From the NCBI RefSeq assembly GCF_013385985.1, contig NZ_JACAOY010000009.1, positions 27,556 to 91,555 on the forward strand: a stretch of DNA of 64,000 bases, read 5' to 3'. Shown piece by piece: positions 3,257-27,238 of the stretch (position 1 is its first letter; every line of letters starts with the position of its first letter). Below the pieces are notes generated by a model that saw only the letters and a list, made by a program, of their open reading frames with translations, made no database searches and was not told the origin of the DNA. This stretch comes from Pseudomonas sp. B6002 (GTDB taxonomy: Bacteria; Pseudomonadota; Gammaproteobacteria; Pseudomonadales; Pseudomonadaceae). The position numbers and the translations under genes were made by a program.

Positions 3257-3268
3257 CGGAGCAGCACG

Positions 3269-10785: not shown

Positions 10786-12192
10786 ATGAGCCCATCATTT
10801 GCCCCCCCCACCGACACGTATGATGTCGCGATCATCGGCGCCGGCGTCGTGGGTTGCGCCATGGCGCGGCGCTTCACCCTTGAAGGGGCACGGGTGCTGT
10901 TGCTGGAAAAAGGTACCGACATCCTCTCGGGTGCGAGCAAGGGCAACAGTGCCATTTTGCACACCGGTTTCGATGCGCCACCGGGTAGCCTCGAGCTGGC
11001 GTGCATGAGAGCGGGTTATCAGGAATACCTGGAGATCCACGGGCACATGAACCTGCCGCTGCTCAAGACCGGCGCCATGGTGGTGGCCTGGAGTGACGAC
11101 GACCTGGCCAAGCTCGACGGCATCCTGCAACAGGCCCATGCCAACGGCGTGACCGATGCGCACCTGATCGGCCCGCAGCAGCTCCAGCACGCCGAACCCC
11201 ACCTGGCCCACGGCGCCCTGGGGGCCGTGGCGGTGCCCGGGGAATATCTGATCGACCCATGGTCGGCGCCCCTGGGTTACCTGCAACACGCCATGGCCCA
11301 CGGCGCCCGCGTGCACACCGGGACCGACGTCGAGGCCGGGCATTTTGACGGCCAGGCGTGGCAGCTGCGTACCTCGCGCGGCAGTTATATCGCCAACACC
11401 GTGATCAACTGCGCCGGGCTGTTCGGCGACCACCTGGAACACCGCCTGCTGGGCGACAGCACCTTTAGCATCCACCCGCGCAAAGGCCAGTTCGTGGTGT
11501 TCGACAAGGCCGCGTCCGCCCTGCTCGGCAACATCATCCTGCCGGTGCCCAATGAGCGCACCAAAGGCATCGTCATCACCCGCACCGTCTTTGGCAACTT
11601 GCTGGTGGGGCCCACCGCCGAAGAACAGGACGACCGCGTTCACGCCGGCCTGACCCCGGCCATCCTCAACCAATTGATCGACGCCGCCGTGGCCCGCATT
11701 CCGGCGCTGGAGGGCATGCCCGTCACCGCCACCTACGCCGCCCTGCGCCCCGCCAGCGAGAAGAAGGAATACCGCATCCACGAAGTGACCGGGCAGCACT
11801 GGATCACCGTCGGTGGTATCCGCTCCACCGGGCTGACAGCCGCGCTGGGCATTGCCCGGCATGTGTTCGAGCTGTACAGGCAGCGCGTCCAGCACGCGCC
11901 CGTCACACACCTGAGCTGGCCGCACTTGCCCAACCTCGCCGAGCACTTGCCACGGGACTATCAACAGCCGGGCTTTGGCGAAATCGTCTGCCACTGCGAG
12001 TGGGTCACCTCGCGGGAAATCCAGGCCACCTTTGCCAGCCCCCTGCCCCCCGGCGACCTCGGTGGCCTCAAGCGTCGCACCCGTGCGTGCATGGGCCGCT
12101 GCCAGGGTTTTTACTGCGGCGCCCGCGTGGCCGAACTGAGCGCCGGGCACCTCGCACTGCCACTGGCCACGGGAGCCGCCCATGAAGACTGA
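10786..12192 (+). CDS. GlpA-like FAD-dependent dehydrogenase with C-terminal [2Fe-2S] BFD-like domain
   Basis: 468 residues. The N-terminal DAO fold carries the FAD motif DVAIIGAGVVGCAMARR (about residues 13-29), and a GGIRSTGLTAALGIA block near 345 is typical of GlpA/GlpD/LhgO relatives. The C-terminus has the BFD-type cysteine cluster CHCE near residue 403 and CMGRCQGFYC near 435-444, as in anaerobic glycerol-3-phosphate dehydrogenase GlpA. It would oxidise a hydroxy or polyol-phosphate substrate and pass electrons to the quinone pool. It overlaps the next gene by 11 bp and is first in an operon with a second flavoprotein, an FGGY kinase and a permease. Substrate unknown. Confidence 0.82.
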   Translation: MSPSFAPPTDTYDVAIIGAGVVGCAMARRFTLEGARVLLLEKGTDILSGASKGNSAILHTGFDAPPGSLELACMRAGYQEYLEIHGHMNLPLLKTGAMVVAWSDDDLAKLDGILQQAHANGVTDAHLIGPQQLQHAEPHLAHGALGAVAVPGEYLIDPWSAPLGYLQHAMAHGARVHTGTDVEAGHFDGQAWQLRTSRGSYIANTVINCAGLFGDHLEHRLLGDSTFSIHPRKGQFVVFDKAASALLGNIILPVPNERTKGIVITRTVFGNLLVGPTAEEQDDRVHAGLTPAILNQLIDAAVARIPALEGMPVTATYAALRPASEKKEYRIHEVTGQHWITVGGIRSTGLTAALGIARHVFELYRQRVQHAPVTHLSWPHLPNLAEHLPRDYQQPGFGEIVCHCEWVTSREIQATFASPLPPGDLGGLKRRTRACMGRCQGFYCGARVAELSAGHLALPLATGAAHED

Positions 12193-13444
12193 GTACGTGG
12201 ACGTGGCAATCATCGGCAGCGGCCCGGCCGGGTTGTCGGCCGCCGTTGAGCTGCGCCGCCAGGGCGTGGACAACGTGGTGGTGATCGAACGCGACAGCGT
12301 GGCCGGTGGCGTGCCGCGCCATTGCGGCCACCCGCCGTTCGGCTTTCGCGAATACGGCCGTCTCTATACCGGGCCCGACTATGCGCGCCGCAACGTCGCC
12401 GAAGCCCTGGCCGCCGGCGTGCAACTGCGCCTGGGCCACACCGTGACCCAACTGGGCCATGGCGGTTGCCTGCAGCTGGTGAGCAACGCCGGCGCCGTCA
12501 CCCTGCAAGCCAAGCGCGTACTGCTGGCCACCGGCGTGCGCGAGAACCCGCGCTCGGCGCGCCTGATCGGCGGTGACCGGCCCCTGGGGGTGATCAACAC
12601 CGGTGCCCTGCAAGCCTACCTGTACCTGCAACACCTCAAGCCGTTCGAACGGCCGCTGATTATCGGCAGCGAACTGGTGAGTTTGTCCTCGGTGTTCAGT
12701 TGCCGCCGTGCCGGGATCAAGCCGGTGGCGATGATCGAGTCGAACTTCCGTGCCACCGCGCGTTGGCCGTTGTCGCTGTTCCCATGGCTGTGCGGCGTAC
12801 CGGTGCATTACGGCGCGCAGCTATTGGAGATCCACGGCACCGGTCGCGTGGAGGCCGCCAGCGTGCGCCTGGCCAACGGGCAGGTGCAGCGCCTGGACTG
12901 CGATGGCGTGCTGCTCACCGGGCAGTTCCTGCCGGAAGCCAGCCTGGTGCGCCAAAGCCACTTGATGCTGGACCCGGGCAGCCGTGGCCCGGTGATCGAC
13001 CAATACGGCCGTTGCTCCGACCCGGCCTACTTCGCCGCCGGCAACCTGCTGCGCCCGGTGGAAACCGCCGGCTGGTCGTGGCGCGAAGGGGCCCGCGTGG
13101 CACACCTGCTGGCCAAGGACTTGCGCGGTGAAATCCCCGCGGCCCAGCGCACCCTGGCCATCCGCTGCCGCCCGCCGTTGAAGCTCTGCGTGCCGCAACG
13201 TTTTGCCCCAACCGGCGTGGCCGGCCTTGAGCACCTGCAATTGCGCGTCAGCACAGCCTGCGAAGGCAAATTGACGGTGTATGCCGACGGCGTGCCGATC
13301 TGGAGCAAGGCCCTGGCCTGCCTGCCGGAGCGACGCATTTTGATCCCCATTGCCGCACTCAAACTCAACGCCCGTATCACGCAACTGGATGTCGACTTTG
13401 TCGGCCATGAACACCCCGCGCCGAACAAAGGAGAGACGCCATGA
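12182..13444 (+). CDS. FAD/NAD(P)-dependent oxidoreductase, partner of GlpA-like subunit
   Basis: 420 residues of the pyridine-nucleotide-disulfide oxidoreductase type. FAD site VDVAIIGSGPAGLSAAVEL is at about residues 6-24, an ATGVRENPR block near 117, and a terminal YFAAGNLLRPVETAGWSW segment near 280 closes the FAD domain. Flavoproteins of this class sit beside GlpA-like BFD proteins in many bacteria and act as the electron-transfer subunit of a membrane-linked dehydrogenase. It overlaps its upstream neighbour by 11 bp and the kinase by 4 bp (ATGA), so the three are tightly coupled. The role as partner subunit is inferred. Confidence 0.75.
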   Translation: MKTEYVDVAIIGSGPAGLSAAVELRRQGVDNVVVIERDSVAGGVPRHCGHPPFGFREYGRLYTGPDYARRNVAEALAAGVQLRLGHTVTQLGHGGCLQLVSNAGAVTLQAKRVLLATGVRENPRSARLIGGDRPLGVINTGALQAYLYLQHLKPFERPLIIGSELVSLSSVFSCRRAGIKPVAMIESNFRATARWPLSLFPWLCGVPVHYGAQLLEIHGTGRVEAASVRLANGQVQRLDCDGVLLTGQFLPEASLVRQSHLMLDPGSRGPVIDQYGRCSDPAYFAAGNLLRPVETAGWSWREGARVAHLLAKDLRGEIPAAQRTLAIRCRPPLKLCVPQRFAPTGVAGLEHLQLRVSTACEGKLTVYADGVPIWSKALACLPERRILIPIAALKLNARITQLDVDFVGHEHPAPNKGETP

Positions 13445-14856
13445 GAATTGCCGCCCTGGACCAAGGCACCACCAGCACCCGCGTGCTGGTGGTCAGCGAT
13501 GACGGCTCGGCCGATATCCAGCTCGCCTTGCGCCACCAGCAACACCACCCGCAGCCGGGCTGGGTCGAGCATGACCCGCTGGAGCTGCTGGCCAACCTGC
13601 AACGCTGCCTCGAATCCACCGGGCGCGTGGATGCCATCGGCCTGGCCAACCAGGGTGAAAGCTGCCTGGCGTGGGACGCGATCACCGGCAAGCCGCTGTC
13701 GCCGGTGATCGTCTGGCAAGACAACCGCACCGGCCCGGCCATCGAGCGGCTGCGCGCCGAAGGCGGCGAAGGCCTGACCCTGGCCCGTGCCGGGCTGCCC
13801 CTGGACCCGTACTTTTCCGCAAGCAAGCTGAGCTGGATCATCAACCACCTGCCCGCCGCCCAGCAGGCGCTCAAGGCCGGGCGCCTGCGCCTGGGCACCA
13901 GTGACGCGTGGTTTCTCGACCGCCTTACCGGGGTGTTCGCCACCGATGTCACCACCGCATCGCGCACCTCGCTGATGAACCTGGCCACCGGGCAATGGGA
14001 CGCCGAACTCTGTGAACTGTTCGGGGTACCCATCGAGACCCTGCCGCCGATTCTCGACACCGTCGGCCATTTCGGTGAGATCGGCGCCACGCCGGTCACC
14101 GCCGCAGTGGTCGACCAGCAAGCCTCGTTGTATGGCCACGGCTGCCGCAAGGCCGGCGATGCCAAGATCACCTTTGGCACCGGCGCGTTTGCCCTGACCC
14201 TGACCGGCGACGAGATCATCCGCGCCCCGGACAAAGGCCTGCTCGCCACCATCGCCTGGCAGATCGACGGCAAGCCGGTGTACGCCATGGACGGCGGTGT
14301 GTACGACGCCAGCGCCGCCGTGGAATGGGCTGGCCGGTTGGGCTTGTTCAGTGATTTTTCCGAACTGGCCGGCTTCGACCAGCCCCCGGCGATTGCCCGC
14401 CAGCTGGCGTTCGTGCCGGCATTGTCGGGCCTGGCCTGCCCACACTGGGATCGCAGCGCGGCCGCCTTGTGGGTGGGCATGCACGGCGGCACCACGCGTC
14501 AGGACATGTGCCAGGCCGTGCTGGAAGGCGTGGCCCTGCGCAGTGTCGAGGTGATCAGCGCCATGGACCAGTTCCTCAGCGTCACCGACCGCCTGTCCAT
14601 CGACGGCGGCCTGGCGCGCAGCCCCTATTTCGCGCAGTTCCTCGCCGACGCCTTGCAACGGTGCATCGTGACCCAGCGTTTCGACGAACTTACCGCCTTT
14701 GGTTGTGCAGCACTGGCCGCCCGTGGACTGGGCAAAACCCTGGTGGCACCGCGCAACACCTGCACCGAGTTCCACCCCAGGGTCAGCGCGGCCACCGCCC
14801 GCGCGTGGAGGGACACCTTCAGCGACGCGGTCAGCCGCTGTCGCACCTGGCGCTAG
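13441..14856 (+). CDS. FGGY-family carbohydrate kinase, glycerol-kinase-like but divergent
   Basis: 471 residues, slightly shorter than GlpK (about 500). ATP-site motifs are present: DQGTTSTRVLVV at residue 7, TFGTGAFALTL near 244 and IDGGLARSPYFAQFLAD near 385. The catalytic Asp lies in VVDQQASLYG near 223. The GlpK sugar-site motif NQRET reads NQGES near 70, so the Arg that contacts glycerol in GlpK is lost, although YFSASKLSW near 122 is kept. It therefore probably phosphorylates a polyol or sugar other than glycerol, giving the substrate of the GlpA-like dehydrogenase. It is fully embedded in the operon by a 4-bp overlap upstream. Confidence 0.82.
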   Translation: MRIAALDQGTTSTRVLVVSDDGSADIQLALRHQQHHPQPGWVEHDPLELLANLQRCLESTGRVDAIGLANQGESCLAWDAITGKPLSPVIVWQDNRTGPAIERLRAEGGEGLTLARAGLPLDPYFSASKLSWIINHLPAAQQALKAGRLRLGTSDAWFLDRLTGVFATDVTTASRTSLMNLATGQWDAELCELFGVPIETLPPILDTVGHFGEIGATPVTAAVVDQQASLYGHGCRKAGDAKITFGTGAFALTLTGDEIIRAPDKGLLATIAWQIDGKPVYAMDGGVYDASAAVEWAGRLGLFSDFSELAGFDQPPAIARQLAFVPALSGLACPHWDRSAAALWVGMHGGTTRQDMCQAVLEGVALRSVEVISAMDQFLSVTDRLSIDGGLARSPYFAQFLADALQRCIVTQRFDELTAFGCAALAARGLGKTLVAPRNTCTEFHPRVSAATARAWRDTFSDAVSRCRTWR

Positions 14857-15064
14857 CCACAGGCAACCGGTGACAACAGGCAGTTGCCACCCGCTTCACC
14901 GCCAGGGAATTGACCGGCTCACAACGCCGAAAAAGGCAAAACCACAACAAAAAACACGCTGGCATATGAAGTGCGTCACCCCGTCGGGCCCCGGGCGTCG
15001 CAGGTTGCCCTGTCAACCCGTGCGCCGAGCCTTGTCCTGTGCATTTTTTGAAGGAGACATCCCC

Positions 15065-16540
15065 ATGTCTGACACTCTTTCGAGTCCGCAAACCGTTTTA
15101 CCCGATAAAGGTGCCGACAGCGGCACCGGCTACAAAGAACAGTTCGAACGCTCTCTGGGCAAGTTCGAATCCTTTGCCGTGGCGTTTTCGTTTATCTCGA
15201 TCACCACCGGGCTGTTTTCCACCTACGGTTCGGTGCTGGTCTCCAGCGGCCCCATCGGCATGTGGACCTGGCCCATCGCAACCCTCGGCACGCTGCTGGT
15301 GGCACTGGTGTTCGGGCTGCTGGCGAGCAAGATCCCGCTGTCCGGTTTCAGCTACCAGTGGGCCAGTCGCCTGGTCAACCCGGTGTTGGGCTGGTGGTTT
15401 GGCTGGATGAGTTTCGCGTTCATCGCGGTGGTGCTGCTGGCGGTGGATTACGGGCTGGCCCAGGTGGCGCTGTTCCCCTTGCTCGGGCTTGAGTACTCCC
15501 CGGCGGCGGGCGCCATCACCACTGTGGTGGTGCTGTTTATCCAGATGCTGCTGATCATCTGGTCGACGCCGATCCTGACCAAGATCAACAACATGGCCGT
15601 GGGGGCGGAAGTGATCGCGATGATCGGCCTGATCGTCGGCATCGGCATCGCCGTGACCTTCTTCGGCAAGGGCCAGGCGTCCAACCTGCTGTCCACCGGC
15701 ATTGCCCCCACCGAGCACTACTACGGCTGGCTCGGCCCGTTCATGCTCTCGGGCCTGCTCGGCGCCTTCACCCTGGTGGGTTGGGAAGCGGCGGCCAACC
15801 TGGCCGAAGAGACCCTCAACCCCAAGCAGGTGGTGCCTCGGGCGATGGTCCACGCGGTGCTGGCCAGTGGCGTGATGGGCACGTTGTTCCTGATGGTGAT
15901 CGGCATGGGCCTGGGCGATCAAGTGGCTGAGTTGAGCAAGAGTTCGGCACCGGTGGCCGACGTGATCCGCATCACCCTGGGCGAAACCCTGAGCAAGCTC
16001 ATCCTGTTGGTGGTGTGCGTGGCGATCTTTGCCTGTGGCCTGGTGATCATGACCAGCAACAGCCGCCTGGTGCACGCCATGGCCCGCGACGGGCGCCTGC
16101 CGTTCGCCGAAGCCTTGAGCTACGTGCCACGCCCCACCGGCGGCCCGCTGTGGGCGACGATCCTGGCGGCGCTGATCCCGATGATCATCGTGCTGAGCTT
16201 CTACAGCGACCCCGACGCCCTCACGCAAATTCTCGGTGCGGCCACCCTGCTGCCGGCCCTGCTCTACAGTGCCACCGTGCTGCTGTACATCGGCACTCGC
16301 CACAAACAGCTGCACCACGCCGACGACTTTACCCTGGGCAAATGGGAATGGCCGGTGGTGGCTGGCGCGTGTCTGTGGCTGTTCGTGGAGCTGTGCGTGT
16401 TCATGATCCCGGCGGACTTTCGCGTGGCGCAGATGTACGTGCTGGGCCTGATCGCGGTCGGCGCCGTGGTGTTTGCCTGCGTGTGGGTCACCCGTCGCAA
16501 GCAACTGGAACAGATGCCGCCGATCCAGCATTACCTGTAA
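15065..16540 (+). CDS. APC-family amino acid/amine permease
   Basis: 491 residues and about twelve membrane segments. The start at 15065 is chosen because a GAAGGAGA site lies just upstream; the reading frame stays open much further 5' without support. Motifs such as GWEAAANLAEETLNPKQVVPR (about residues 238-258) are typical of the APC/AAT-type group related to GABA, choline and ethanolamine permeases. It is a plasma-membrane importer. It is 208 bp downstream of the kinase, probably still in the operon. An amine importer beside a sugar-type kinase and a GlpA-like dehydrogenase is an unusual combination and hints at an amino-polyol or similar substrate. Confidence 0.82.
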   Translation: MSDTLSSPQTVLPDKGADSGTGYKEQFERSLGKFESFAVAFSFISITTGLFSTYGSVLVSSGPIGMWTWPIATLGTLLVALVFGLLASKIPLSGFSYQWASRLVNPVLGWWFGWMSFAFIAVVLLAVDYGLAQVALFPLLGLEYSPAAGAITTVVVLFIQMLLIIWSTPILTKINNMAVGAEVIAMIGLIVGIGIAVTFFGKGQASNLLSTGIAPTEHYYGWLGPFMLSGLLGAFTLVGWEAAANLAEETLNPKQVVPRAMVHAVLASGVMGTLFLMVIGMGLGDQVAELSKSSAPVADVIRITLGETLSKLILLVVCVAIFACGLVIMTSNSRLVHAMARDGRLPFAEALSYVPRPTGGPLWATILAALIPMIIVLSFYSDPDALTQILGAATLLPALLYSATVLLYIGTRHKQLHHADDFTLGKWEWPVVAGACLWLFVELCVFMIPADFRVAQMYVLGLIAVGAVVFACVWVTRRKQLEQMPPIQHYL

Positions 16541-16616
16541 GCCACACCCCCTTCGCCCACCTGATACGGCAGAGGCTGCACCCCAGCCTTGCGGCATCCG
16601 GCTGCGCGCGATTCCT

Positions 16617-16636
16617 CGGCTGCCCCTGGGCAGCCG
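16617..16636. terminator. Hairpin between convergent permease and DeoR genes
   Basis: CGGCTGCCC-CT-GGGCAGCCG is a perfect 9-bp stem with a 2-nt centre, lying between the two stop codons. It is followed by GGGGTTTA rather than a clean T-run, so it may be a weak or bidirectional terminator. Confidence 0.45.
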
Positions 16637-16641
16637 GGGGT

Positions 16642-17421
16642 TTACCAATCGGTTTTCGGAGTGACCTGCGCCTCATGCACGTCCACATTGGCCCGCGCCA
16701 ACGCACTGCCCAGCTCGCCCACCGGCTTGCGATCGATGATCAAGCGGTCGATGCGCTCCAGGGGAAACACCTGGAACAACGCACTGCGGCCGAGCTTGGA
16801 CGAGTCGGCGATCACCGTGAGGTAGCGCGCCCGGGCAATCATCGCACGGGCGATCTCGGCCTCTTCGATGGAGAAGTCGAACGCACCGTCCACGCTCAGG
16901 GCGCCGATGGTGACCACGGCGTGCTCGGCGTTGAAACGGGCGATCTGCTCCAGCGCCAGCGGCCCGCTGTTCTGGTTGGATTCGGGGCGGTACTCGCCAC
17001 CGATCATGAACACCCGGTTGCCACTGGCGCCGATGCTGTCGGCGATCTGCAGGGAGTTGGTGATCACCGTGATGCGGTTGAGCCGCGCCAGTTCGCGGGC
17101 GAAAAACAAGGTGGTGGTGCCGGTATCGATCAGCAGGCTGTCGCCCGGCGAATACAAGCCGGCGGCATAGCGCGCCACTGCGCGTTTTTCCTGGGAGAAC
17201 TCGTTCATGCGGGTCTGGAACGCGTTCTCGTGTTCACCACGGGGTGGCAACGAGGCCCCGCCATGGAACTTGGTGACCTGGCCGCTATCGGCGAGGTCCG
17301 CCAGGTCGCGGCGAATGGTTTCCTGGGAGGCGCTGAGGGTACGGGCCAGTTCGTCGACGGAGATGCGCTCGCGCTGGCGAAGCAGTTCGAGGATGTGCTG
17401 GCGGCGCTCGTTGGGACGCAT
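16642..17421 (-). CDS. DeoR/GlpR-family transcriptional repressor
   Basis: 259 residues, standard for the family. The N-terminal helix-turn-helix starts MRPNERRQHILELLRQRERI and continues with ELARTLSASQETIRRDLADL (about residues 24-43), the DeoR signature. The C-terminal sensor has a DTGTTTLFFARELA phosphosugar-site block near residue 99. Members respond to phosphorylated sugars or polyols. It is convergent with the kinase/dehydrogenase operon and has a TTCGGTCA box 46 bp upstream, matching boxes in front of that operon. It is probably the operon's repressor, with the phosphorylated intermediate as inducer. Confidence 0.87.
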   Translation of the reverse strand: MRPNERRQHILELLRQRERISVDELARTLSASQETIRRDLADLADSGQVTKFHGGASLPPRGEHENAFQTRMNEFSQEKRAVARYAAGLYSPGDSLLIDTGTTTLFFARELARLNRITVITNSLQIADSIGASGNRVFMIGGEYRPESNQNSGPLALEQIARFNAEHAVVTIGALSVDGAFDFSIEEAEIARAMIARARYLTVIADSSKLGRSALFQVFPLERIDRLIIDRKPVGELGSALARANVDVHEAQVTPKTDW

Positions 17422-17466
17422 GGCGGTCTCCGTGTCGGTGTTGAGGTGAAGGCAAAACTAAGTGGA

Positions 17467-17474
17467 TTCGGTCA
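17467..17474. promoter_or_regulatory. TTCGGTCA box upstream of deoR-type gene
   Basis: A single copy of the 8-bp core also found in the control region at 10423-10676. It lies 46 bp upstream of the DeoR start and 59 bp upstream of the divergent gene at 17533, so one repressor could act on both. Confidence 0.4.
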
Positions 17475-17532
17475 CCAATTCAACAGATAAGCCACAGAAT
17501 TTTATTCATTCATCAAAAAAACAGAGGTATTT

Positions 17533-18023: not shown

Positions 18024-18713
18024 TCAGACGGACAGGTAGCGGCTGATCGTGGCCTCGTCCACGCGGTCACGGGTCTCTTCGATCACGAAGCGGCCCTTCT
18101 CGATGACGAGGAAGCGGTCGGCGATTTCCAGGGTGAAGGACAGCACCTGCTCGGACACGACGATGGTCAGGTCCCGCAGGTTGCGGATCTCCTTCAAGGT
18201 GCGGGCGATGTCCTTGATGATCGACGGCTGGATCCCCTCCGTCGGTTCATCGAGCAACAACACCTTGGGGTTGGTCGCCAGCGCGCGGGCAATTGCCAGC
18301 TGCTGTTGCTGCCCACCGGACAGGTTGCCGCCCTTGCGCGATTGCATGTCGTGCAGCACCGGAAACAACGCGTACAGATCCTCCGGCACCTTGCCCCGCG
18401 CCGAGGCCGGCAGGCCGGTCTGGATGTTTTCCAGCACGGTCATGCTCGGGAAAATCATGCGGCCCTGGGGCACATAGGCGATGCCCCGCTCTACCCGCTC
18501 GTGGGTTTCCAGTGCCGACACATCGTGCCCGTCCACACTCACCTGGCCTTTCCATTGCGGCAGGATGCCCATCAGGCTCTTGAACAAGGTGGTCTTGCCC
18601 ATGCCGTTGCGGCCCATCACCGCGACAATCTCGCGCTTGGCCACGTTCAGGTCCAGGTCGTGGAGGATCTGGCTCTGCCCGTAGCCGCAGGACAATTGGT
18701 CGATCTTGAACAT
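18024..18713 (-). CDS. urtE: Urea-type ABC transporter ATP-binding protein UrtE
   Basis: 229 residues, a LivF-type ATPase. Walker A GRNGMGKTTLFKSLMG is near residue 34, the signature NLSGGQQQQLAIARAL near 132, and Walker B VLLLDEPTEGIQPSIIKD near 153. The phrase LDEPTEGIQPSII is the usual UrtE wording. It is the last gene of a leftward urtABCDE operon and powers import across the inner membrane with UrtD. No urease genes follow in this window, so urea as substrate is assumed from family only. Confidence 0.9.
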   Translation of the reverse strand: MFKIDQLSCGYGQSQILHDLDLNVAKREIVAVMGRNGMGKTTLFKSLMGILPQWKGQVSVDGHDVSALETHERVERGIAYVPQGRMIFPSMTVLENIQTGLPASARGKVPEDLYALFPVLHDMQSRKGGNLSGGQQQQLAIARALATNPKVLLLDEPTEGIQPSIIKDIARTLKEIRNLRDLTIVVSEQVLSFTLEIADRFLVIEKGRFVIEETRDRVDEATISRYLSV

Positions 18714-18723
18714 GCCTGCTTCC

Positions 18724-19482
18724 TCAGTGGCCCAAATACACTTCGATGACTTTAGGGTTGCTCTGCACCGACTCCATGCTGCCCTCGGCCAGCACCTTGC
18801 CCTGGTGCAGCACCGTGACCTTGTGGGCGATGCTTTTGACGAACTCCATGTCGTGCTCGATCACCAGCACCGAACGGCCCTGGCTGATGCGGTTGAGCAG
18901 CTCGGCGGTCTGTGCGCGTTCGTTGACGCTCATGCCCGCCACGGGCTCGTCGAGCATCAGCAGCTCGGGGTCTTGCATCAGCAGCATGCCAATTTCCAGC
19001 CACTGCTTTTGCCCGTGGGACAAGAGGTCGGCCTGCTGTTGCAGCAAATCGCCGAGGAAGATCTCCCGCGCCACCTCCTCCACCCGTGCGATCACCTGGG
19101 CGTTGCGCTTGAAGAACAGCGCGCCCCACACCTTGCGCCCGGCCGGGTAGGACATCTCCAGGTTCTCGAACACCGTGAGGTTTTCGTAGATCGATGGGTT
19201 CTGGAACTTGCGCCCCACACCTGCGCGCACGATGTTGTATTCGCGCATTTTTGTCAGTTCCTGCCCGTCGAACTGGATGCTGCCGCTGGTGGCGCGGGTC
19301 TTGCCGCAGATCAGGTCGAGCACGGTGGTCTTGCCGGCGCCGTTGGGGCCGATCACCACGCGCACTTCATTGCGGTCGATATACAGGTTGAGGTTGTCGA
19401 CCGCCTTGAAGCCATCAAACGACACGGTGAGGCCTTCGATGGCCAGCACCGGTTTCTTCATCTCAAAGCCGACGGCGCTCAT
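18724..19482 (-). CDS. urtD: Urea-type ABC transporter ATP-binding protein UrtD
   Basis: 252 residues, LivG-type. Walker A IGPNGAGKTTVLDLICG is near residue 42, signature LSHGQKQWLEIGMLLMQ near 151 and Walker B LLMLDEPVAGMSVNERAQT near 172. Its start overlaps the urtC stop (ATGA) and urtE begins 11 bp after its stop. LSHGQKQWLEIGM in place of LSGGQ is characteristic of UrtD. The first residues (before MKKPVLAIEG) could be extra, as a second Met occurs at codon 8. Confidence 0.9.
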   Translation of the reverse strand: MSAVGFEMKKPVLAIEGLTVSFDGFKAVDNLNLYIDRNEVRVVIGPNGAGKTTVLDLICGKTRATSGSIQFDGQELTKMREYNIVRAGVGRKFQNPSIYENLTVFENLEMSYPAGRKVWGALFFKRNAQVIARVEEVAREIFLGDLLQQQADLLSHGQKQWLEIGMLLMQDPELLMLDEPVAGMSVNERAQTAELLNRISQGRSVLVIEHDMEFVKSIAHKVTVLHQGKVLAEGSMESVQSNPKVIEVYLGH

Positions 19483-20630
19483 GGCTGGGTCTCCAGGATT
19501 TTGGTTTTAGCCTTGGCTTTGACCGGGGCTTTCACCACCGGTGTGCGCCGCAGCAGTTTGGCCAACGCCTGGCGGCCATGGCTCTCCCACAATCCGGCCA
19601 GGCCGTTGGGGAAGTACATCACCACGGCAATGAACAACCCGCCCATCAGGTACAGCCACAGTTCGGGAAACGACTCGGAAAAGTAGGTCTTGCCGTAGTT
19701 CACCAGCAACGCGCCATACACCGCGCCCAGCAGCGACATGCGCCCGCCCACGGCGGCAAAGATCACCATCTCGATCGACGGCACGACGCCCACGAACGAC
19801 GGCGACATGAAGCCCACCTGCAAGGCAAACATCGCCCCGCCCATCGCCGAGAACGCAGCGGCCACACAGAACACGAAGATCTTGAAGCTGGCCACGTCAT
19901 AGCCGGAAAAACGCACGCGCTCTTCCTTGTCGCGCATCGCCATCAGCAACCGACCGAGCTTGGACGCGAGGATGAAGCGGCCAATGAAGATGCAGCCAAA
20001 CAGCAAGCCCGCGTTGATGAAGTACAGGATCAGCTTGGCGCTGTCGGTGCGCAGGTCCCAGCCGAGCAGGGTCTTGAGGTCGGTGATGCCATTGACGCCA
20101 CCGGTCAGGCCTTGCTGGCCGACGATCAGCACGGTGAGGATCAGTGCAATCGCCTGGGTGACGATGGAGAAATACACATCCCCCACACGGCGTTTGAACA
20201 ACGCCATGCCGATGATAAATGCCAGGAGTACCGGCACCGCGATCACCGCAAAAACGGTAAAGCTGAAACTGTGGAACGGCTGCCACAACAGCGGCAGTTC
20301 GGTGATCTGGTTCCAGTCCATGAAGTCCGGGATGCCAGGGGTGGATTGGATTTTGGTGCTCTCCGGGTCCGATGCCTCCAGCTTGAGGAACATCGCCATG
20401 CAATAGCCGCCAACGCCGAAGAACACGCCCTGCCCCAGGCTGAGAATGCCGCCATAGCCCCAGCACAGCACCAGGCCCACCGCGACGAACGCGTAGGTCA
20501 GGTACTTGCCGACCATGTTCAGGCGGAACGCGTCCAGGGTCAGGGGGAATACCACCAGGATCAACAGCCCCAGCAGCACGATGCCGATCAGGTTTTGCTG
20601 GCCGCCCAGCAGCTTGTCTAAAGCCTTCAT
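19479..20630 (-). CDS. urtC: Urea-type ABC transporter permease UrtC
   Basis: 383 residues, a LivM-type permease with about nine to ten membrane segments and the characteristic WGYGGILSLGQGVFFGVGGY block near residue 56. The basic C-terminal tail (alternating Lys/Ala, VKAPVKAKAKTK) is cytoplasmic. It partners with UrtB to form the channel. The stop overlaps the urtD start by 4 bp, and the gap to urtB is 10 bp, so the whole set is one operon. Confidence 0.9.
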   Translation of the reverse strand: MKALDKLLGGQQNLIGIVLLGLLILVVFPLTLDAFRLNMVGKYLTYAFVAVGLVLCWGYGGILSLGQGVFFGVGGYCMAMFLKLEASDPESTKIQSTPGIPDFMDWNQITELPLLWQPFHSFSFTVFAVIAVPVLLAFIIGMALFKRRVGDVYFSIVTQAIALILTVLIVGQQGLTGGVNGITDLKTLLGWDLRTDSAKLILYFINAGLLFGCIFIGRFILASKLGRLLMAMRDKEERVRFSGYDVASFKIFVFCVAAAFSAMGGAMFALQVGFMSPSFVGVVPSIEMVIFAAVGGRMSLLGAVYGALLVNYGKTYFSESFPELWLYLMGGLFIAVVMYFPNGLAGLWESHGRQALAKLLRRTPVVKAPVKAKAKTKILETQP

Positions 20631-20640
20631 CTGCTCGCCT

Positions 20641-21558
20641 CTACTTGCGCACTTTGATGGAGAACAACCCTTGCGGGCGCAGCATCAGGATCAGGATCAC
20701 CGAGGACAAGGTGAGTACCTTGGCCATCGAGCCACTGAGGAAAAACTCCGACAGCGATTGGGTCTGGGCAATCACGAACGCCGAGGCGATGGTGCCGAAC
20801 AGGCTCTGCGCACCGCCAAACACCACCACCAGGAAGGTATCGACGATGTACTGCGAACCCGCCGTGGGCCCGGTGGAGCCAATGGTGGTGAACGCCGCAC
20901 CCGCCACCCCGGCCACGCCGCAACCCAGGGCGAAGGTCATGCGGTCGACCTTGCGCGTATTGATGCCTACCGCCCGGCTCATCAGGCGGTTCTGCACCGT
21001 GGCGCGCACCTGCAAGCCCCAGCGCGAGCGGTAGAGCATGATGAAGATCGCACCGGTCAGCAGCAGGGTCAGGCCCATCATGAACAGGCCGTTGCGCGGG
21101 ATCTCGATGGCGTCGGTGAAGTTTACCGAGCCCATTAGCCAGGCCGGCGGTTCGGCGCTGACCTCACGGGCGCCGAACACCGAGCGGAAGGTTTGCTGCA
21201 TCACCAGGGACAAGCCCCAGGTCGCCAGCAAGGTGTCCAGCGGGCGCTTGTACAAACGGCTGATCATCGCCCACTCCACCAGCCAGCCGATGGCGCCGGC
21301 AACGAGGAACGACAGGGCGATGGCAAAGAAGAAGTAATAGGGTTGGAAGCTCGGCGCAAAGTGCGCGGTCAGGCTGGAACACACGTAGGTGGTGTAGGCG
21401 CCGATGGTCAGGAACTCGCCGTGGGCCATGTTGATCACGCCCATCTGACCAAAGATGATCGCCAGCCCCAATGCCATCAGCAACAGCACGCAGAACACGG
21501 ACAAGCCGTTGAACCCCTGCATTGCCGCGATGGCTCCAAATTCCGATAGCCATTCCAT
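20641..21558 (-). CDS. urtB: Urea-type ABC transporter permease UrtB
   Basis: 305 residues from the ATG at 21558 (MEWLSEFGAIAAMQGFNGLS); the frame is open further upstream but into a REPIN. It is a LivH-type permease with the block GLAIIFGQMGVINMAHGEF near residue 35 and about eight membrane segments. It forms the heteromeric pore with UrtC. It is 146 bp downstream of urtA, separated by a REPIN that may lower expression of the membrane genes relative to the binding protein. Confidence 0.9.
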   Translation of the reverse strand: MEWLSEFGAIAAMQGFNGLSVFCVLLLMALGLAIIFGQMGVINMAHGEFLTIGAYTTYVCSSLTAHFAPSFQPYYFFFAIALSFLVAGAIGWLVEWAMISRLYKRPLDTLLATWGLSLVMQQTFRSVFGAREVSAEPPAWLMGSVNFTDAIEIPRNGLFMMGLTLLLTGAIFIMLYRSRWGLQVRATVQNRLMSRAVGINTRKVDRMTFALGCGVAGVAGAAFTTIGSTGPTAGSQYIVDTFLVVVFGGAQSLFGTIASAFVIAQTQSLSEFFLSGSMAKVLTLSSVILILMLRPQGLFSIKVRK

Positions 21559-21594
21559 GATGATGGTCTCCTGAGAACCAGGTTGAGAACAGAC

Positions 21595-21683
21595 CTGTAG
21601 GAGCCGGCTTGCCGGCGATCCAGGCACCCCGGTGTTTCAGTTGCACCGAGGGGATGCCATCGCCGGCAAGCCGGCTCCTACAG
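21595..21683. repeat. REPIN, TGTAGGAGC type, inside the urt operon
   Basis: CTGTAGGAGCCGGCTTGCCG and its reverse complement at 21664-21683 are perfectly paired around a spacer. It lies between urtA and urtB, a common place for stability or attenuation hairpins after a highly expressed binding-protein gene. Confidence 0.9.
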
Positions 21684-21704
21684 GGGTTGTGCCAGCCTTA
21701 GGGG

Positions 21705-22913
21705 TTATTGGTAGCCTTTGGGGAACGGGTTCGGCTCGATCAGATCCGACTCGTAGATCACCTTGAACTGGCCGTTGGGCTGCACTTCACCGATGCGCGA
21801 CTTGCTCCACAGGTGATGGTTCTCGTGGATCTTCACGTAGCCTTCCGGCGCGGTTTTCAGCTCGATGCCTGGCGATGCGGCCACCACTTTATCCACGTCG
21901 AAACTGCCGGCCTTCTCCACCGCGGCTTTCCACAGCCATGGGCCGAGGTAGGCGGCCTGGGTCACGTCGCCGATCACCGCGTCCTTGCCGTACTTGGCCT
22001 TGAAGGCTTCGACGAAGGCTTTGTTGTTCGGGTTGTCCAGGCTCTGGAAGTACTTCATCGAGGCATAGAAACCGGCCATGTTTTCACCGCCGATGCCGAG
22101 CAGTTCGTCTTCGGTGACCGACAGCGTCAGCAAGGTCTGCTTGGACGCGTTCACGCCGGCCGCGTTGAGCTGTTTGTAGAAGGCCACGTTGGAGCCGCCG
22201 ACCACCGCTGCAAACACCACATCCGGCTTCTTCAGCTTGACCTTGTTGATCAGCGAACCGAACTGGGTGTTGCCCAGCGGGTAGTAATCTTCGCCGACCA
22301 CGGTGCCGTGCAGCACGTTTTCAATGTGCTTGCGTGCGATCTTCATCGAGGTGCGCGGCCAGATGTAGTCCGAGCCCACCAGGTAGAAGGTCTTGGCGCC
22401 TTTGGTCTTGGCGATCCAGTCGAGGCTGGCGAGGATCTGCTGGGTGGCTTCCTGCCCGGTGTAGATCACGTTTTTCGACTGCTCCAGGCCTTCGTAGAAG
22501 GTCGGGTAGTAGAGCAAACCGTTTTCTTTTTCGAAGATCGGCAACACCGCTTTGCGCGACGCCGAGGTCCAGCAGCCGAACACGGCGGCGACCTTGTCGT
22601 TGACCAGCAGCTTCTTGGCTTTCTCGGCGAAGGTCGGCCAGTCGGATGCGCCGTCTTCCTGGATCACCTTGATCTGCCGACCGAGAATACCGCCCGACGC
22701 GTTGATCTGCTCGATGGCCAGGCGCTCGGCCTGGATCGAGCCGGTCTCGGAAATAGCCATGGTGCCGGTGGCCGAGTGCAACTGGCCGACGGTGACTTCG
22801 GTGGGGGTCACGGCCAAGCCTTCGTTGTCGGCCAGCACGCCCTGGCTGAACAGAGCGGCCGCCAGTAATGACAAGGCCAACAGCGGTGTGGAGCGGATCA
22901 ATCTGGGTGCCAT
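21705..22913 (-). CDS. urtA: Urea-type ABC transporter substrate-binding protein UrtA
   Basis: 402 residues from the ATG at 22913, which has a GAGGAG site 7 nt upstream and is followed by a signal peptide (MAPRLIRSTPLLALSLLAAA...). The mature part starts near EVTVGQLHSATGTMAISETG and contains DGASDWPTFAEKAKKLL and VFGCWTSASRKAVLPIFE, typical of UrtA/AmiC-type family-5 binding proteins. It captures urea or a short amide/ureide in the periplasm. It is divergent from the NCS1-kinase gene, and the operator-like TACGTCA sites sit upstream. No urease follows, so another ureido or amide ligand is plausible. Confidence 0.87.
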   Translation of the reverse strand: MAPRLIRSTPLLALSLLAAALFSQGVLADNEGLAVTPTEVTVGQLHSATGTMAISETGSIQAERLAIEQINASGGILGRQIKVIQEDGASDWPTFAEKAKKLLVNDKVAAVFGCWTSASRKAVLPIFEKENGLLYYPTFYEGLEQSKNVIYTGQEATQQILASLDWIAKTKGAKTFYLVGSDYIWPRTSMKIARKHIENVLHGTVVGEDYYPLGNTQFGSLINKVKLKKPDVVFAAVVGGSNVAFYKQLNAAGVNASKQTLLTLSVTEDELLGIGGENMAGFYASMKYFQSLDNPNNKAFVEAFKAKYGKDAVIGDVTQAAYLGPWLWKAAVEKAGSFDVDKVVAASPGIELKTAPEGYVKIHENHHLWSKSRIGEVQPNGQFKVIYESDLIEPNPFPKGYQ

Positions 22914-22979
22914 GGGGCGACTCCTCTGCAATGAGGAGTCCAGCATGGCGGCAGGGGGCCAGCGCGGGTATACGCAGCC

Positions 22980-23008
22980 TGACGTAAGCGGGTACGTCAT
23001 TTGACGTA
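22980..23008. promoter_or_regulatory. Three TGACGTA/TACGTCA half-sites, candidate response-regulator operator
   Basis: TGACGTA (22980-22986), TACGTCA (22993-22999) and TGACGTA (23002-23008) lie in the intergenic region. The last two form a perfect palindrome with a 2-bp centre. They are 67-95 bp upstream of urtA and would suit a LuxR/NarL-type regulator such as the one at 26573. Position-based inference. Confidence 0.5.
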
Positions 23009-23063
23009 TGCCGCTGCGCACCATTTTCGCGCAGGATCGCGCCCGCCCACCGCCCCAAAACCC

Positions 23064-23154
23064 TGTGGGAGCTGGCTTGCCTGCGATAGCGGTGTGTCAG
23101 CCGACCTCTCCAGTGCCCGATCCACCGCTATCGCAGGCAAGCCAGCTCCCACAT
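23064..23154. repeat. REPIN, GTGGGAGC type
   Basis: TGTGGGAGCTGGCTTGCCTG and the matching right arm CAGGCAAGCCAGCTCCCACA form an almost perfect inverted pair. The element occupies the 5' side of the sensor-kinase gene, within the 301-bp divergent region that also carries the TACGTCA sites. Confidence 0.9.
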
Positions 23155-23214
23155 TTTGAATCGGGGCATGGAACTTGCTCATCCGATTTAGCCTTCTTTG
23201 CGGAGTCTCCCACC

Positions 23215-26200
23215 GTGCATCCCCCTCCCGGCACCCAGCGCATCGTCAAGATCCGCCGCGACTACAACACCTGGGTCGCCGACGAGACCATGGAAGACTA
23301 CGCCCTGCGCTACACCCCCAAGTCCTTTCGCAAATGGTCGGAGCTGCGCATCGCCAACACGGCCCTGGGCGCGGTGTCGTTCCTGGCGCTGGAGGCCATC
23401 GGCGGCGTCTTGGCCTTGAGCTACGGGTTCACCAACACCTTCTGGGCGATCCTGGCGATCAGCCTGGTGATTTTCCTCACCGGCCTGCCCATCAGTTATT
23501 ACGCCGCGCGCTACGGCGTGGACATGGACCTGCTCACCCGTGGCGCCGGTTTCGGCTATATCGGTTCCACCATCACCTCGCTGATCTACGCCAGCTTCAC
23601 CTTCCTGTTCTTCGCCCTCGAAGCGGCAATCATGGCCCTGGCTTTGGAGCTGTATTTCCACATTCCGCTGGCGATTGCCTATGTGATCTGTTCATTGCTG
23701 GTGATCCCCTTGGTGGCCTACGGCGTGACCCTGATCAGCCGCCTGCAGCTGTGGACGCAGCCGATCTGGCTGCTGTTGCTGGTGCTGCCCTACGGCTTTG
23801 TGGCGTGGAAAAACCCCGACGCCTTCAGCGACTGGACCAGCTTTGTCGGGCGCAGCGGCGAAGGGGGCGGGTTCAACCTGCTGGCGTTCTGCGCCGCATG
23901 CACCGTGGCGCTGTCCCTGGTGACGCAGATCGGCGAACAGGTCGACTACCTGCGCTTCCTGCCGGAAAAAACCGCCGCCAACCGTAAGCGCTGGTGGGCC
24001 GCCCTGCTCTGCGCCGGCCCCGGCTGGATCATCCCCGGCGCGTTGAAGATGTTTGCCGGGGCGTTCCTGGCGTTTCTCGCCCTGCAACACGAAATTCCCA
24101 TGGAGCGCGCCGCCGAGCCGACCCAGATGTACCTGGTCGCCTTCCGCTATGTGTTCAGCTCGCCGGAATGGGCCCTCGGCGCCATGGTGCTGTTCGTGTT
24201 CATCTCGCAGATGAAGATCAACCTGACCAACGCCTACGCCGGCTCCCTGGCCTGGTCCAACTTCTTTGCCCGCATCACCCACAGCCACCCCGGCCGCGTG
24301 GTGTGGCTGGTGTTCAACGTGGCCATCGCGCTGATGCTGATGGAGCTGGGCGTGTTCGATGTGATCGACCAGGTGCTGGGGCTCTACGCCAATGTGGCGA
24401 TTGCCTGGATCGGCACGCTGGTGGCGGACCTGGTGATCAACAAGCCGTTGGGCCTGTCGCCCAAGCACATCGAGTTCAAGCGCGCGCACCTCTACGACAT
24501 CAACCCGGTGGGGGTCGGTTCGATGCTGATCGCGTCGTTGCTGTCGATCCTCGCCCACTTCGGCCTGTTCGGTGCCCTGGCCCAGGCTGCGCCCCCCTTT
24601 GTCGCGCTGGGCACAGCGCTGGTGATGGCGCCGTTGTTGGCCTGGCTGACCGGGGGCAAGTACTACATCGCCCGCACCAGCGATGTGCAGTTGATTCACC
24701 CGGTGGCGCCGGCCACCCACGCGGTGTGCGGGCTGTGCAGCAACCCGTTCGAAACCGCCGACATGGCGTTCTGCCCGGCCTACAGCACGCCAATCTGCTC
24801 GTTGTGCTGCTCGCTGGATGCGCGTTGTGGCGACCGCTGCAAACCCCACGCGCGCCTGGTCACCCAGTTCGAAGGCGTGTTGCGCTGGCTGCTGCCGAAT
24901 ACGATGATGCCGCGCCTGCACACGCGCCTGGCGCATTACCTGGGGTTGCTGCTGGCGCTGGTGTTGATGCTCGCTGGCGCCCTGGCGTTGATCTACGTGC
25001 AGGCTGCCCAGGGGCTGCCTCATTCGGAAACCTTGTACCAGGCGTTCTTCAAAGCCTTCCTGACCCTGTCGGTGTTGGCCGCCGTGCTCGCCTGGTGGGT
25101 GGTACTCACCCGTGAAAGCCGTGGCGTGGCCCAGCAGGAATCCGACCGCCAGACCCTGCTGCTGATGCAGGAAATCGACGCCCACAGCCTCACCGACCAG
25201 GCCCTGCAACAGGCCAAGGAAGCCTCGGAAGCGGCGAATGCCGCCAAGAGCCGCTACGTCACCGGGCTGTCCCACGAGCTGCGCACACCGCTGAACAGCA
25301 TCCTCGGTTTCACCCAGATCCTGCAGCGCGACAGCGCCATGCCCGAGCAGCATCAGGACGCCCTGGCGACCATCCTGCGCAGCGGCTCGCACCTGGTGTC
25401 GCTGATCGACGGGCTGCTGGATGTGGCCAAGATCGAGGCGGGCAAGTTGCGCCTGGAACTCACCGAAATTCCCTTCCCGGAACTGCTTCACGACCTGGAG
25501 CAGATGTTCACGCCCCAGGCCCAGGACAAGGGCCTGCGCTTTCGCCTGGACTGCGCGGGCAATATCCCGGCGGTGGTGCGCGGTGATGAGAAGCGCGTGC
25601 GGCAGATCCTGATCAACCTGCTAGGCAATGCGGTGAACTTCACCGACAGCGGCGAGGTGTGCCTGCGAGTGAGCTACAGGCGCGAGACGGCCAATTTTGA
25701 AATCATCGACACCGGCATCGGCATAGACCCTGGGCAACTGGAGCGGATTTTCCAGCCGTTCGAGCGTGGCGACCTGATGCGCCAGGACAAGGGCGTGGGC
25801 CTGGGGCTGACCATTACGCGCATGCTCACCGCGCTGATGGGCGGCGAATTGCGCGTCACCAGCGAACTGGACAAGGGCACGTGCTTCCAGGTGCGGCTGT
25901 TCCTGTCCCAGGTACGTGCGCCGCAGGCGGTGGTGCATGTGGAGCACGACATCATCGGCTATCTCGGTTCACGCCGGCGCATTCTGGTGGTGGATGACCA
26001 CGTGGACCATCGCAAGGTACTCAGCGGCATGCTCACGCCCCTGGGGTTTGAAGTGATCCAGGCCAGCAACGGCCAGGACGCGATCCGCCAGGTGGCGCTG
26101 CTGGCCCCTGACCTGATCCTGATGGACCTGTCGATGCCGACGCTGGACGGCTATGAAACCAGCCGCCTGATCCGGCGCAACGCGCTGTCGACCGCACCGA

Positions 26201-26598
26201 TCATCGTGATCTCGGCCAATGCCTTTACCGACGACCGCGAACGCGGTATCGCGGCTGCCTGCAACGACTACCTGGCCAAGCCGGTGCGCACGCCGGAACT
26301 GCTCGGGCGCCTGCAAACACATCTGGGCCTGGAGTGGCTGCGGCGCACTCAAAGCCGTGTGCCGCCTGCGCCACCCAGCGTGCTGCCCAGCCCCGAAGAC
26401 CTCGCCGCCCTCGCCGAACTCAGCGCCATCGGCTATGTGCGCGGCCTGCACGAACGACTCGACACGATCCTTGTACAAACTCCCGACGCCGCGCCTTTCA
26501 TCAGCAAAGTGCGCGGTTTGCTCAAGGGCTTTCGCCTGGATGAACTCAACCGAACCCTCAAGGAGGCCGTAGATGAATGCACTCACCCGCAGCACTGA
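23215..26598 (+). CDS. NCS1 permease-hybrid histidine kinase fusion (transporter-like sensor)
   Basis: 1127 residues from a GTG at 23215 with GGAG 9 nt upstream. Residues 15-490 are an NCS1 purine/pyrimidine/hydantoin-type permease: RRDYNTWVADETMEDYALRY, then about twelve hydrophobic segments. Residues 505-545 are a Cys-rich module with eight Cys and a final His. Two more hydrophobic segments (about 565-640) follow. The kinase has its H-box SHELRTPLNSILGF at His687, an N-box around 795-805 (ILINLLGNAVNF), and DTGIGI and GVGLGLT loops. A receiver domain (about 922-1040) has phospho-acceptor Asp971 in LILMDLSMP. The last 70 residues are helical, of unclear role. It is comparable in layout to CbrA, which uses an SSSF carrier domain. 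It likely senses a nucleobase, hydantoin or ureide and controls the divergent urt operon through the next gene. Confidence 0.9.
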   Translation: MHPPPGTQRIVKIRRDYNTWVADETMEDYALRYTPKSFRKWSELRIANTALGAVSFLALEAIGGVLALSYGFTNTFWAILAISLVIFLTGLPISYYAARYGVDMDLLTRGAGFGYIGSTITSLIYASFTFLFFALEAAIMALALELYFHIPLAIAYVICSLLVIPLVAYGVTLISRLQLWTQPIWLLLLVLPYGFVAWKNPDAFSDWTSFVGRSGEGGGFNLLAFCAACTVALSLVTQIGEQVDYLRFLPEKTAANRKRWWAALLCAGPGWIIPGALKMFAGAFLAFLALQHEIPMERAAEPTQMYLVAFRYVFSSPEWALGAMVLFVFISQMKINLTNAYAGSLAWSNFFARITHSHPGRVVWLVFNVAIALMLMELGVFDVIDQVLGLYANVAIAWIGTLVADLVINKPLGLSPKHIEFKRAHLYDINPVGVGSMLIASLLSILAHFGLFGALAQAAPPFVALGTALVMAPLLAWLTGGKYYIARTSDVQLIHPVAPATHAVCGLCSNPFETADMAFCPAYSTPICSLCCSLDARCGDRCKPHARLVTQFEGVLRWLLPNTMMPRLHTRLAHYLGLLLALVLMLAGALALIYVQAAQGLPHSETLYQAFFKAFLTLSVLAAVLAWWVVLTRESRGVAQQESDRQTLLLMQEIDAHSLTDQALQQAKEASEAANAAKSRYVTGLSHELRTPLNSILGFTQILQRDSAMPEQHQDALATILRSGSHLVSLIDGLLDVAKIEAGKLRLELTEIPFPELLHDLEQMFTPQAQDKGLRFRLDCAGNIPAVVRGDEKRVRQILINLLGNAVNFTDSGEVCLRVSYRRETANFEIIDTGIGIDPGQLERIFQPFERGDLMRQDKGVGLGLTITRMLTALMGGELRVTSELDKGTCFQVRLFLSQVRAPQAVVHVEHDIIGYLGSRRRILVVDDHVDHRKVLSGMLTPLGFEVIQASNGQDAIRQVALLAPDLILMDLSMPTLDGYETSRLIRRNALSTAPIIVISANAFTDDRERGIAAACNDYLAKPVRTPELLGRLQTHLGLEWLRRTQSRVPPAPPSVLPSPEDLAALAELSAIGYVRGLHERLDTILVQTPDAAPFISKVRGLLKGFRLDELNRTLKEAVDECTHPQH

Positions 26599-27238
26599 AC
26601 CTGGCGTGGTGCTGATCGTCGATGACACGCCGGACAACCTGGCGATGTTGTCCGATGCCCTCGACGACGCCGGCTACATGGTGCTGGTGGCCCTCGATGG
26701 CCTCAGCGCATTGAACCGCGTACAGCGCCGCCGCCCGGACCTGATCCTGCTCGACGCGATGATGCCGGGCCTGGACGGTTTCGAGACCTGTCGCCGGCTC
26801 AAGGCCCAACCGGCCAGCGCGGACATCCCGGTGGTGTTCATGACCGGGCTGACTGACAGCAAGCATGTGGTGCAGGGGTTTGAAGTGGGTGGCAGCGACT
26901 ACGTGACCAAGCCGATCCAGACCGACGAGGTGCTGGCACGGGTGGCAGCGCATTTGCGCACCTCGCGCATTTTGCTGTCGGCGCGGGAGGCCAGGCAGCC
27001 GAGTGTGCTGACGCTGGAGGATGAGCCGGCGCACCGCTTGTTATCGGCGCGGTTTGCGTTGACGGAACGGGAGGTGGAGGTGCTGCGCTGGGTGGCGTGC
27101 GGCAAGACCAATCGGGACATCGGCGATATTTTGGGGTTGAGCCCGAGGACGGTAAACAAGCACCTGGAGCATGTGTATGTGAAGCTCGGCGTGGAGACCC
27201 GCACCGCTGCCACCTCCGTAGCGTTGGCTGCGATCTGA
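26573..27238 (+). CDS. LuxR/NarL-type response regulator paired with the NCS1 sensor kinase
   Basis: 221 residues. The receiver domain (about 8-125) has the acidic pair in VLIVDDTPDN, phospho-acceptor Asp61 in LILLDAMMPGLDGFE, and the conserved Lys in YVTKPIQ near 108. A LuxR helix-turn-helix occupies about residues 158-215 (LTEREVEVLRWVACGKTNRDI). Its start lies 26 bp inside the kinase gene, so the two are co-translated partners. It probably binds the TACGTCA sites upstream of urtA. A REP pair follows the stop. The family and pairing are secure; the target is inferred. Confidence 0.9.
   Translation: MNALTRSTEPGVVLIVDDTPDNLAMLSDALDDAGYMVLVALDGLSALNRVQRRRPDLILLDAMMPGLDGFETCRRLKAQPASADIPVVFMTGLTDSKHVVQGFEVGGSDYVTKPIQTDEVLARVAAHLRTSRILLSAREARQPSVLTLEDEPAHRLLSARFALTEREVEVLRWVACGKTNRDIGDILGLSPRTVNKHLEHVYVKLGVETRTAATSVALAAI

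Follow-up and report, generated by a model that had tools for sequence, protein, structure and literature searches.

Could a carrier of the NCS1 family serve as the sensory part of a bacterial histidine kinase, and which compound would it then report? This question is raised by a 64,000-nucleotide stretch of DNA from Pseudomonas sp. B6002 (assembly GCF_013385985.1, contig NZ_JACAOY010000009.1, positions 27,556 to 91,555), hereafter the window, in which a 1127-residue protein joins a carrier to a hybrid histidine kinase. The initial annotation described this carrier-kinase-receiver fusion, an overlapping gene for a LuxR-type regulator (the overlap is 26 bp) and their divergence from urtABCDE, all of which is confirmed. 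By Pfam and NCBIfam, the fusion contains HisKA, HATPase_c and receiver domains, the downstream product has the receiver and GerE domains of a LuxR/NarL-type regulator, and all five urt products score above the NCBIfam UrtA-UrtE cut-offs (Table 1). We consider it likely that these genes constitute a two-component system for short-chain amides, in which the signal runs from an NCS1 receptor through the kinase to the regulator and activates the urt importer genes and the fmd formamidase genes. The fusion stands beside formamide, small-amide or urea genes across many Proteobacteria, and it probably acts as a sensor, hitherto unrecognised, that turns on these genes.

The carrier of the fusion is NCS1 by fold and homology, and the earlier view that it is not of the SSSF type is borne out by both structure lists and profile comparisons. 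CodB and Mhp1 head both structure-comparison lists, with a fold match that spans the whole carrier; these two proteins differ from the fusion in having no kinase, in being Na+-coupled and in taking heterocyclic substrates (PMC9379551). The fusion profile matched a set of eight NCS1 sequences with E 1.4e-30, and L195, a stand-alone relative that itself passes Pfam PF02133 (36.4 bits), gave an hhalign match with E 4.9e-32. CodB alone matched the 50-row fusion alignment A2 only in part (149 columns, probability 35.7%, E 0.00039), and therefore the NCS1 membership rests on the structure lists, the L195 hhalign match and the NCS1-set profile. No Pfam family, PF02133 included, was found in the N-terminal 670 residues up to E 10, nor was an SLC5 carrier domain found in the fusion. 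A PDB search with the single sequence gave no match, and one with the A2 profile gave no NCS1 chain, while the cysteine module behind the carrier met two zinc-binding-type chains at chance level (E 1.6 and 4.4). The gene of the relative in L195 (9248-12467, plus strand) adjoins a double carbon-nitrogen hydrolase gene and a UrtA-like gene, and its product is a possible amide carrier.

Which genes accompany the fusion elsewhere? The best 80 of at least 592 matches (the named set, from Pseudomonas, Stutzerimonas, Burkholderiales, Bradyrhizobium and others) show two recurrent contexts. In the first, amiE-fmdB-fmdA-urtEDCBA diverges from the fusion and its response regulator gene; in the second, urease genes adjoin the fusion-regulator pair, and such loci sometimes also hold another urt operon. 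The neighbours were identified with NCBIfam and Pfam as formamidase (NF045496, 751 bits), aliphatic amidase (NF009802, 723 bits), urease alpha, UreG, UreE and a HupE/UreJ protein. The small zinc-ribbon gene, whose library name is RPWMISH-domain protein, is called fmdB here, as in PMC13209695, and the label 'FmdC-like' for a putative porin is a guess, the ExtI match being weak and below its cut-off. Formamidase/amidase/urt or urease/urea-urt genes are nearby in 74 of the 80 named loci; the chance that a 20-kb window of the host genome touches such a cluster is about 1%, a rough figure based on an assumed cluster size.

Because the named set is skewed toward near relatives, an even sample of 398 Pseudomonadota genomes was used, of which 56 have a fusion match (weak or partial in four). 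The 56 loci of this sample comprise every strong match except that of the window itself; L195 and L196 (no fusion), L143 (the fmdA region of the host) and L197 (a near relative) were left out of the locus counts. Formamidase, urease or urtA is present within about 9 kb on either side of the fusion in 54 of the 56 loci, that is, formamidase in 37 (35 with a formamidase-type urtA, 20 of them also with amiE) and urease and/or a urea-type urtA in 17. The other two sit on contig pieces of 11.4 and 4.8 kb; one of the two genomes concerned, G166, has its formamidase on a different contig. Kinase, regulator and urt had been thought to form a conserved unit, and they do: a formamidase-type urtA is divergent and within 1.5 kb of the fusion in 70 of the 73 loci with both, and the response regulator gene lies directly downstream of the fusion in 132 of 138. 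Whether the fusion might occur mostly away from urt genes was also checked, and urtA of either type is present in 45 of the 56 even-sample loci; the remaining 11 comprise two with fmdA and seven with urease but no urtA match (three of these seven show other urt genes), and two with none of these.

Co-occurrence was also counted over whole genomes. With formamidase called where its model scored above cut-off (40 of the 398 genomes), 39 genomes have fusion and formamidase, one (G169) formamidase only, 13 fusion only and 345 neither (Fisher p 1.4e-41, uncorrected for relatedness). In a second family of 60 genomes around G414, which is common to both samples, 26 genomes have the fusion and 21 have formamidase; none of these 21 lacks the fusion, which in 20 of them is on the same contig at a distance of 12.7-20.9 kb. 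In addition, four genomes (G279, G300, G433 and G212) have two fusions each, one by formamidase and one by urease.

In the host genome, the sole formamidase match is outside the window, at C51:24121-25254, together with fmdB and amiE. About 20 kb of other genes separate it from urtE (window positions 1-17500 and 2.3 kb leftward on contig C51); read by eye, their open reading frames (ORFs) are lyase-, DctA-, fumarase-, amidase- and arginase/agmatinase-like, with FAD oxidoreductases, an FGGY kinase and an APC permease, and DeoR was recognised by Pfam. In the near relative G006 (L197), fmdA is about 0.3 kb from urtE, so that fmdA-fmdB-amiE and urt are joined. The host urease is on contig C4 together with a higher-scoring urtA (598 vs. 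535 bits). Considering this and the formamidase linkage in relatives, the urt operon of the window is therefore a formamidase-linked paralogue. The importer was called urea-type in the initial annotation; it does pass the Urt models, but its predicted substrates should read formamide and short-chain amides, perhaps also urea.

NarL-type regulators follow a rule of inverted heptamers in a 7-2-7 arrangement, and such a heptamer motif is present here, placed as expected for a candidate LuxR/NarL-type site: the palindrome TACGTCA-N2-TGACGTA at 22993-23008 is centred some 87 bp ahead of the start of urtA. At least one copy of TGACGTA occurs in 49 of 74 urtA-kinase intergenic regions (2.1 expected from base shuffles), the copies being at fixed spacings of 6 and 2. 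With no more than two mismatches, the palindrome has 85 sites in 140 loci (2.76 Mb), compared with about 7 when shuffles of every seventh locus are scaled up and 0-3 for five control palindromes; many of these loci are near relatives, and the sites are not independent. All but one lie upstream of, and no more than 500 bp from, urtA (of either type), fmdA, amiE, the putative porin gene or the fusion, and the 85th precedes urtC. Both contexts are represented, with the palindrome in 52 of the 74 loci with a formamidase-type urtA and in 12 of the 53 urea-context loci. In the host genome, the only perfect copy is the one before urtA; a two-mismatch copy precedes fmdA, and four other two-mismatch sites look like background. 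A sigma-54 site was found nowhere in the window and once (L150) among the 74 intergenic regions, and a sigma-70 scan of 22900-23230 found none.

Then, how could such a system work? The NCS1 domain would be the receptor, and perhaps also a carrier (a 'transceptor'), for formamide- or acetamide-like compounds here and for urea in other lineages. Ligand binding would shift the carrier, the eight-cysteine module and the helix hairpin would relay the movement to the kinase, and the kinase would phosphorylate the LuxR/NarL-type regulator. The regulator is predicted to bind TACGTCA-N2-TGACGTA and activate urtABCDE, and it would also activate fmdA-fmdB-amiE from the site copy of fmdA.

The carrier may have dispensed with sodium. 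Domain residue 318 is Lys in all 138 aligned fusions, and this position is Lys or Arg in the stand-alone relatives L195, L012, L013 and L017. It aligns with the Ser of an ATLSTN motif in a host carrier (L200), a motif that we equate with Ala309/Ser312/Thr313 of Mhp1. The sodium ligands of CodB include Asn275, Thr278 and Thr279 (PMC9379551); the automatic alignment places Thr278 at residue 322 by means of a four-residue gap, whereas without the gap Thr278 meets Lys318, and Thr278/Thr279 stand against Lys/Ile of the fusion. The sequence of the fusion suggests that the Na2 hydroxyls were lost. In CbrA, the Na2 site is filled by Lys196, and transport of histidine does not depend on a sodium gradient (PMC13022988). 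The Lys at the Na2 position and this analogy suggest that the NCS1 domain needs no sodium to function and perhaps relies on protonation, which has been proposed for CbrA. This is consistent with MetT, an NCS1 carrier of the acyclic metformin whose uptake is unaffected by sodium (PMC13390362).

Between carrier and kinase, no STAC domain was matched by Pfam; the linker is an eight-cysteine module. None of the fusions in the 140 loci (138 distinct peptides) was reported without the pattern CX2CX(8-14)CX(5-9)CX2CCX(3-7)CX3C, and all eight Cys are conserved without exception in both A2 and the 44-row alignment A3. We infer that the module is a metal-binding connector, standing where STAC stands in CbrA. 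In the structure model, the hairpin helices comprise residues 554-582 and, from 588 onward, one that runs on as a long helix. Some variants were also seen. Two fusions in loci with formamidase (L192:8298-10955 and L193:8362-11046, both minus strand) have a plain histidine kinase and no receiver, a simpler version of the sensor. L196 (9756-11612, plus strand) encodes a hybrid kinase that keeps a portion of the Cys module and helix hairpin but lacks NCS1, and that may be a former carrier-bearing sensor.

A FastTree phylogeny of 138 fusions and one outgroup (L194 was dropped as too short, and the tool gave a long-branch warning) needs five changes between formamidase and urea context when rows without context are left out. 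Taken as single groups, the contexts require 7 and 11 changes, compared with means of 45.6 and 42.6 for shuffled labels; on visual inspection, urea context turns up at about four points of the tree. A screen for residues that switch with context, in which L094, L192 and L193 were left out of the formamidase group, let 10 columns through a loose filter applied without a significance test, and two of them were singled out. In transmembrane helix 10 (TM10), 97% of the 74 sequences from formamidase contexts have Gly as residue 384; the urea lineages mostly have Met/Thr/Ala, Ser or Cys there, but one of the two L190/L191 rows also has Gly. Residue 285 is Glu in 80% of formamidase-context sequences and Asp (or Asn) in the four urea lineages. 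The tie of both residues to gene context is suggestive only. Domain residues 113, 120, 320 and 323, which align with the NCS1 pocket and TM8, are invariant over A2. A more specific proposal, to which we would give slightly less than an even chance, is that these proteins form an NCS1-fold transceptor class in which Lys replaces the Na2 sodium, a metal-binding eight-Cys clasp connects to the kinase, formamide/acetamide or urea is read directly, and a few residues suffice for retuning (e.g., Gly384 in TM10, Glu285 to Asp).

Several observations weigh against a sensor of short-chain amides. Characterised NCS1 substrates are mostly heterocycles (PMC13390362), and the Lys/Na2 assignment rests on an alignment that the automatic procedure places differently for CodB. 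The palindrome, at up to two mismatches, is absent from 22 of the 74 loci with a formamidase-type urtA and from 41 of the 53 urea-context loci; it is therefore not universal, and those loci would need another site. At the same threshold the host genome is not enriched (6 sites vs. 9 for the reversed control). Six of the 80 named loci show no formamide, amide or urea genes in the stretch examined, and in G146, the fifth genome with two fusions, both stand next to formamidase. Finally, the genomes are related, and the counts and p-values are not independent.

Of the alternatives, the one that survives best, though we regard it as unlikely, is that the NCS1 domain is only a carrier or anchor and the kinase answers nitrogen status, a metal or redox signal at the eight-Cys module, or ligand-loaded UrtA. 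The invariance of the eight Cys would fit this, as would the retention of part of the Cys/hairpin region by the L196 kinase, and urease needs nickel. However, the invariant pocket and TM8 residues and the variation of the TM10 site with gene context are what would be expected of a ligand-reading domain, which is not decisive. It is improbable that a heterocycle or ureide (allantoin, hydantoin, a pyrimidine) is sensed, whose breakdown would give urea or formamide. Characterised NCS1 carriers do move such compounds, but MetT shows that the family can take an acyclic one (PMC13390362). Moreover, among 12 annotated recurrent neighbour clusters, of 45 listed (one of the 12, c11, was left unnamed), no nucleobase, hydantoin or allantoin catabolic gene was found; the direct partners are formamidase, aliphatic amidase and urease with their transporters, and the hydantoin or pyrimidine breakdown products once proposed as signals are not favoured. 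That the regulator is a repressor or serves another gene set, the linkage reflecting co-inheritance, is very unlikely. It would agree with the many loci that lack the palindrome, but 39 of 40 formamidase genomes carry the fusion, and in both contexts the motif precedes genes of the expected targets (urtA, fmdA, the putative porin and amidase).

A sensor of short-chain amides would join several known carrier-kinase fusions. CbrA of Pseudomonas (PMC13022988) is likewise a LeuT-fold carrier fused to a histidine kinase with Lys in the Na2 site; it differs in its SLC5 carrier (vs. NCS1), in STAC and PAS in place of the Cys module and hairpin, and in its histidine ligand and control of carbon metabolism instead of a local amide/urea operon, and the receiver is in-chain in the fusion. 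CrbS, a hybrid kinase, and RpuS (PMC5715377, PMC9100948) also govern the use or uptake of small nutrients, with SLC5 and STAC and with acetate or pyruvate. The ammonium sensor kinase of Kuenenia (PMC5764959) similarly carries a nitrogen-source transporter as its sensor, but this is an Amt/Rh domain of non-LeuT fold with another ligand. The genes for using formamide and urea as nitrogen sources can be induced by substrate (PMC10781810), and the same enzymes and importer type are found in the formamide- and urea-induced fmdCABDEF of Methylophilus methylotrophus (PMC10781810) and in amiE-fmdA-fmdB-urtABCDE of P. veronii Yu15 (PMC13209695). Strain Yu15 grows on formamide or acetamide as nitrogen source and lacks amiC/amiR at that locus; it also has a plasmid amiECR operon, and therefore growth cannot be ascribed to this locus alone (PMC13209695). 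No sensor kinase is named for either locus in the available parts of PMC10781810 and PMC13209695, and searches confined to open-licence PMC papers, with at most 20 matches listed each, gave none that deals with an NCS1-kinase fusion or with this regulator.

Carrier-kinase fusions in general are already known; new here are the carrier family, the connector and the probable ligands. The fusions make up a real and widespread, apparently undescribed transceptor class, with a function predicted from strong comparative evidence. If the more specific proposal above is true, these fusions would be, as far as the open-licence papers searched show, the first bacterial two-component system dedicated to sensing formamide and urea. 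The presence of the fusion in nearly all formamidase genomes of the even sample would bear on the control of a widespread pathway. NCS1 would be added to the carrier folds that act as sensors of kinases, here through a connector that does not resemble STAC, and the natural switches between formamide and urea contexts offer material for studying how a carrier becomes a receptor.

Table 1. Features of the urt-fusion region (window coordinates; residue 1 of the NCS1 domain numbering is base 23263).
Feature	Position	Strand	Evidence
urtE, ATPase of amide/urea-type ABC importer	18024..18713	-	TIGR03410, 336 bits (cut-off 286)
urtD, ATPase	18724..19482	-	TIGR03411, 382 bits (cut-off 304)
urtC, permease	19479..20630	-	TIGR03408, 444 bits (cut-off 296)
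urtB, permease (ORF as listed; true start probably internal)	20641..21627	-	TIGR03409, 398 bits (cut-off 250)
urtA, binding protein	21705..22913	-	TIGR03407, 535 bits (cut-off 493)
Putative operator TGACGTA-N6-TACGTCA-N2-TGACGTA	22980..23008	.	Between urtA and kinase gene
Perfect 31-bp inverted repeat, REP-like	23064..23153	.	Between operator and kinase gene
Fusion: NCS1 carrier, 8-Cys module, helix hairpin, hybrid histidine kinase (1127 aa)	23215..26598	+	
NCS1 domain, domain residues 10-473	23290..24681	+	Structure alignment range, profile alignment
Invariant Lys, domain residue 318, TM8, probable Na2-site position	24214..24216	+	Fusion alignment
8-Cys module CX2CX11CX7CX2CCX5CX3C, candidate metal-binding connector	24727..24840	+	Cys conservation
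Two helices before kinase, probably a transmembrane hairpin	24922..25107	+	Structure model; hydrophobic by eye
HisKA and HATPase_c	25243..25905	+	PF00512, PF02518
Receiver domain of fusion	25981..26313	+	PF00072
Response regulator, receiver and LuxR/GerE DNA-binding domain	26573..27238	+	PF00072, PF00196

The ORF of urtA opens at 23024, and its start is placed by eye at an ATG that is preceded by a Shine-Dalgarno-like stretch and with which a signal-peptide-like sequence begins. The ATG at 23008 was rejected as start codon on account of the operator and the REP-like inverted repeat. Elsewhere in the window, a cobalamin riboswitch was found at 61095-61235 on the plus strand (35 bits, gathering score 31.5).

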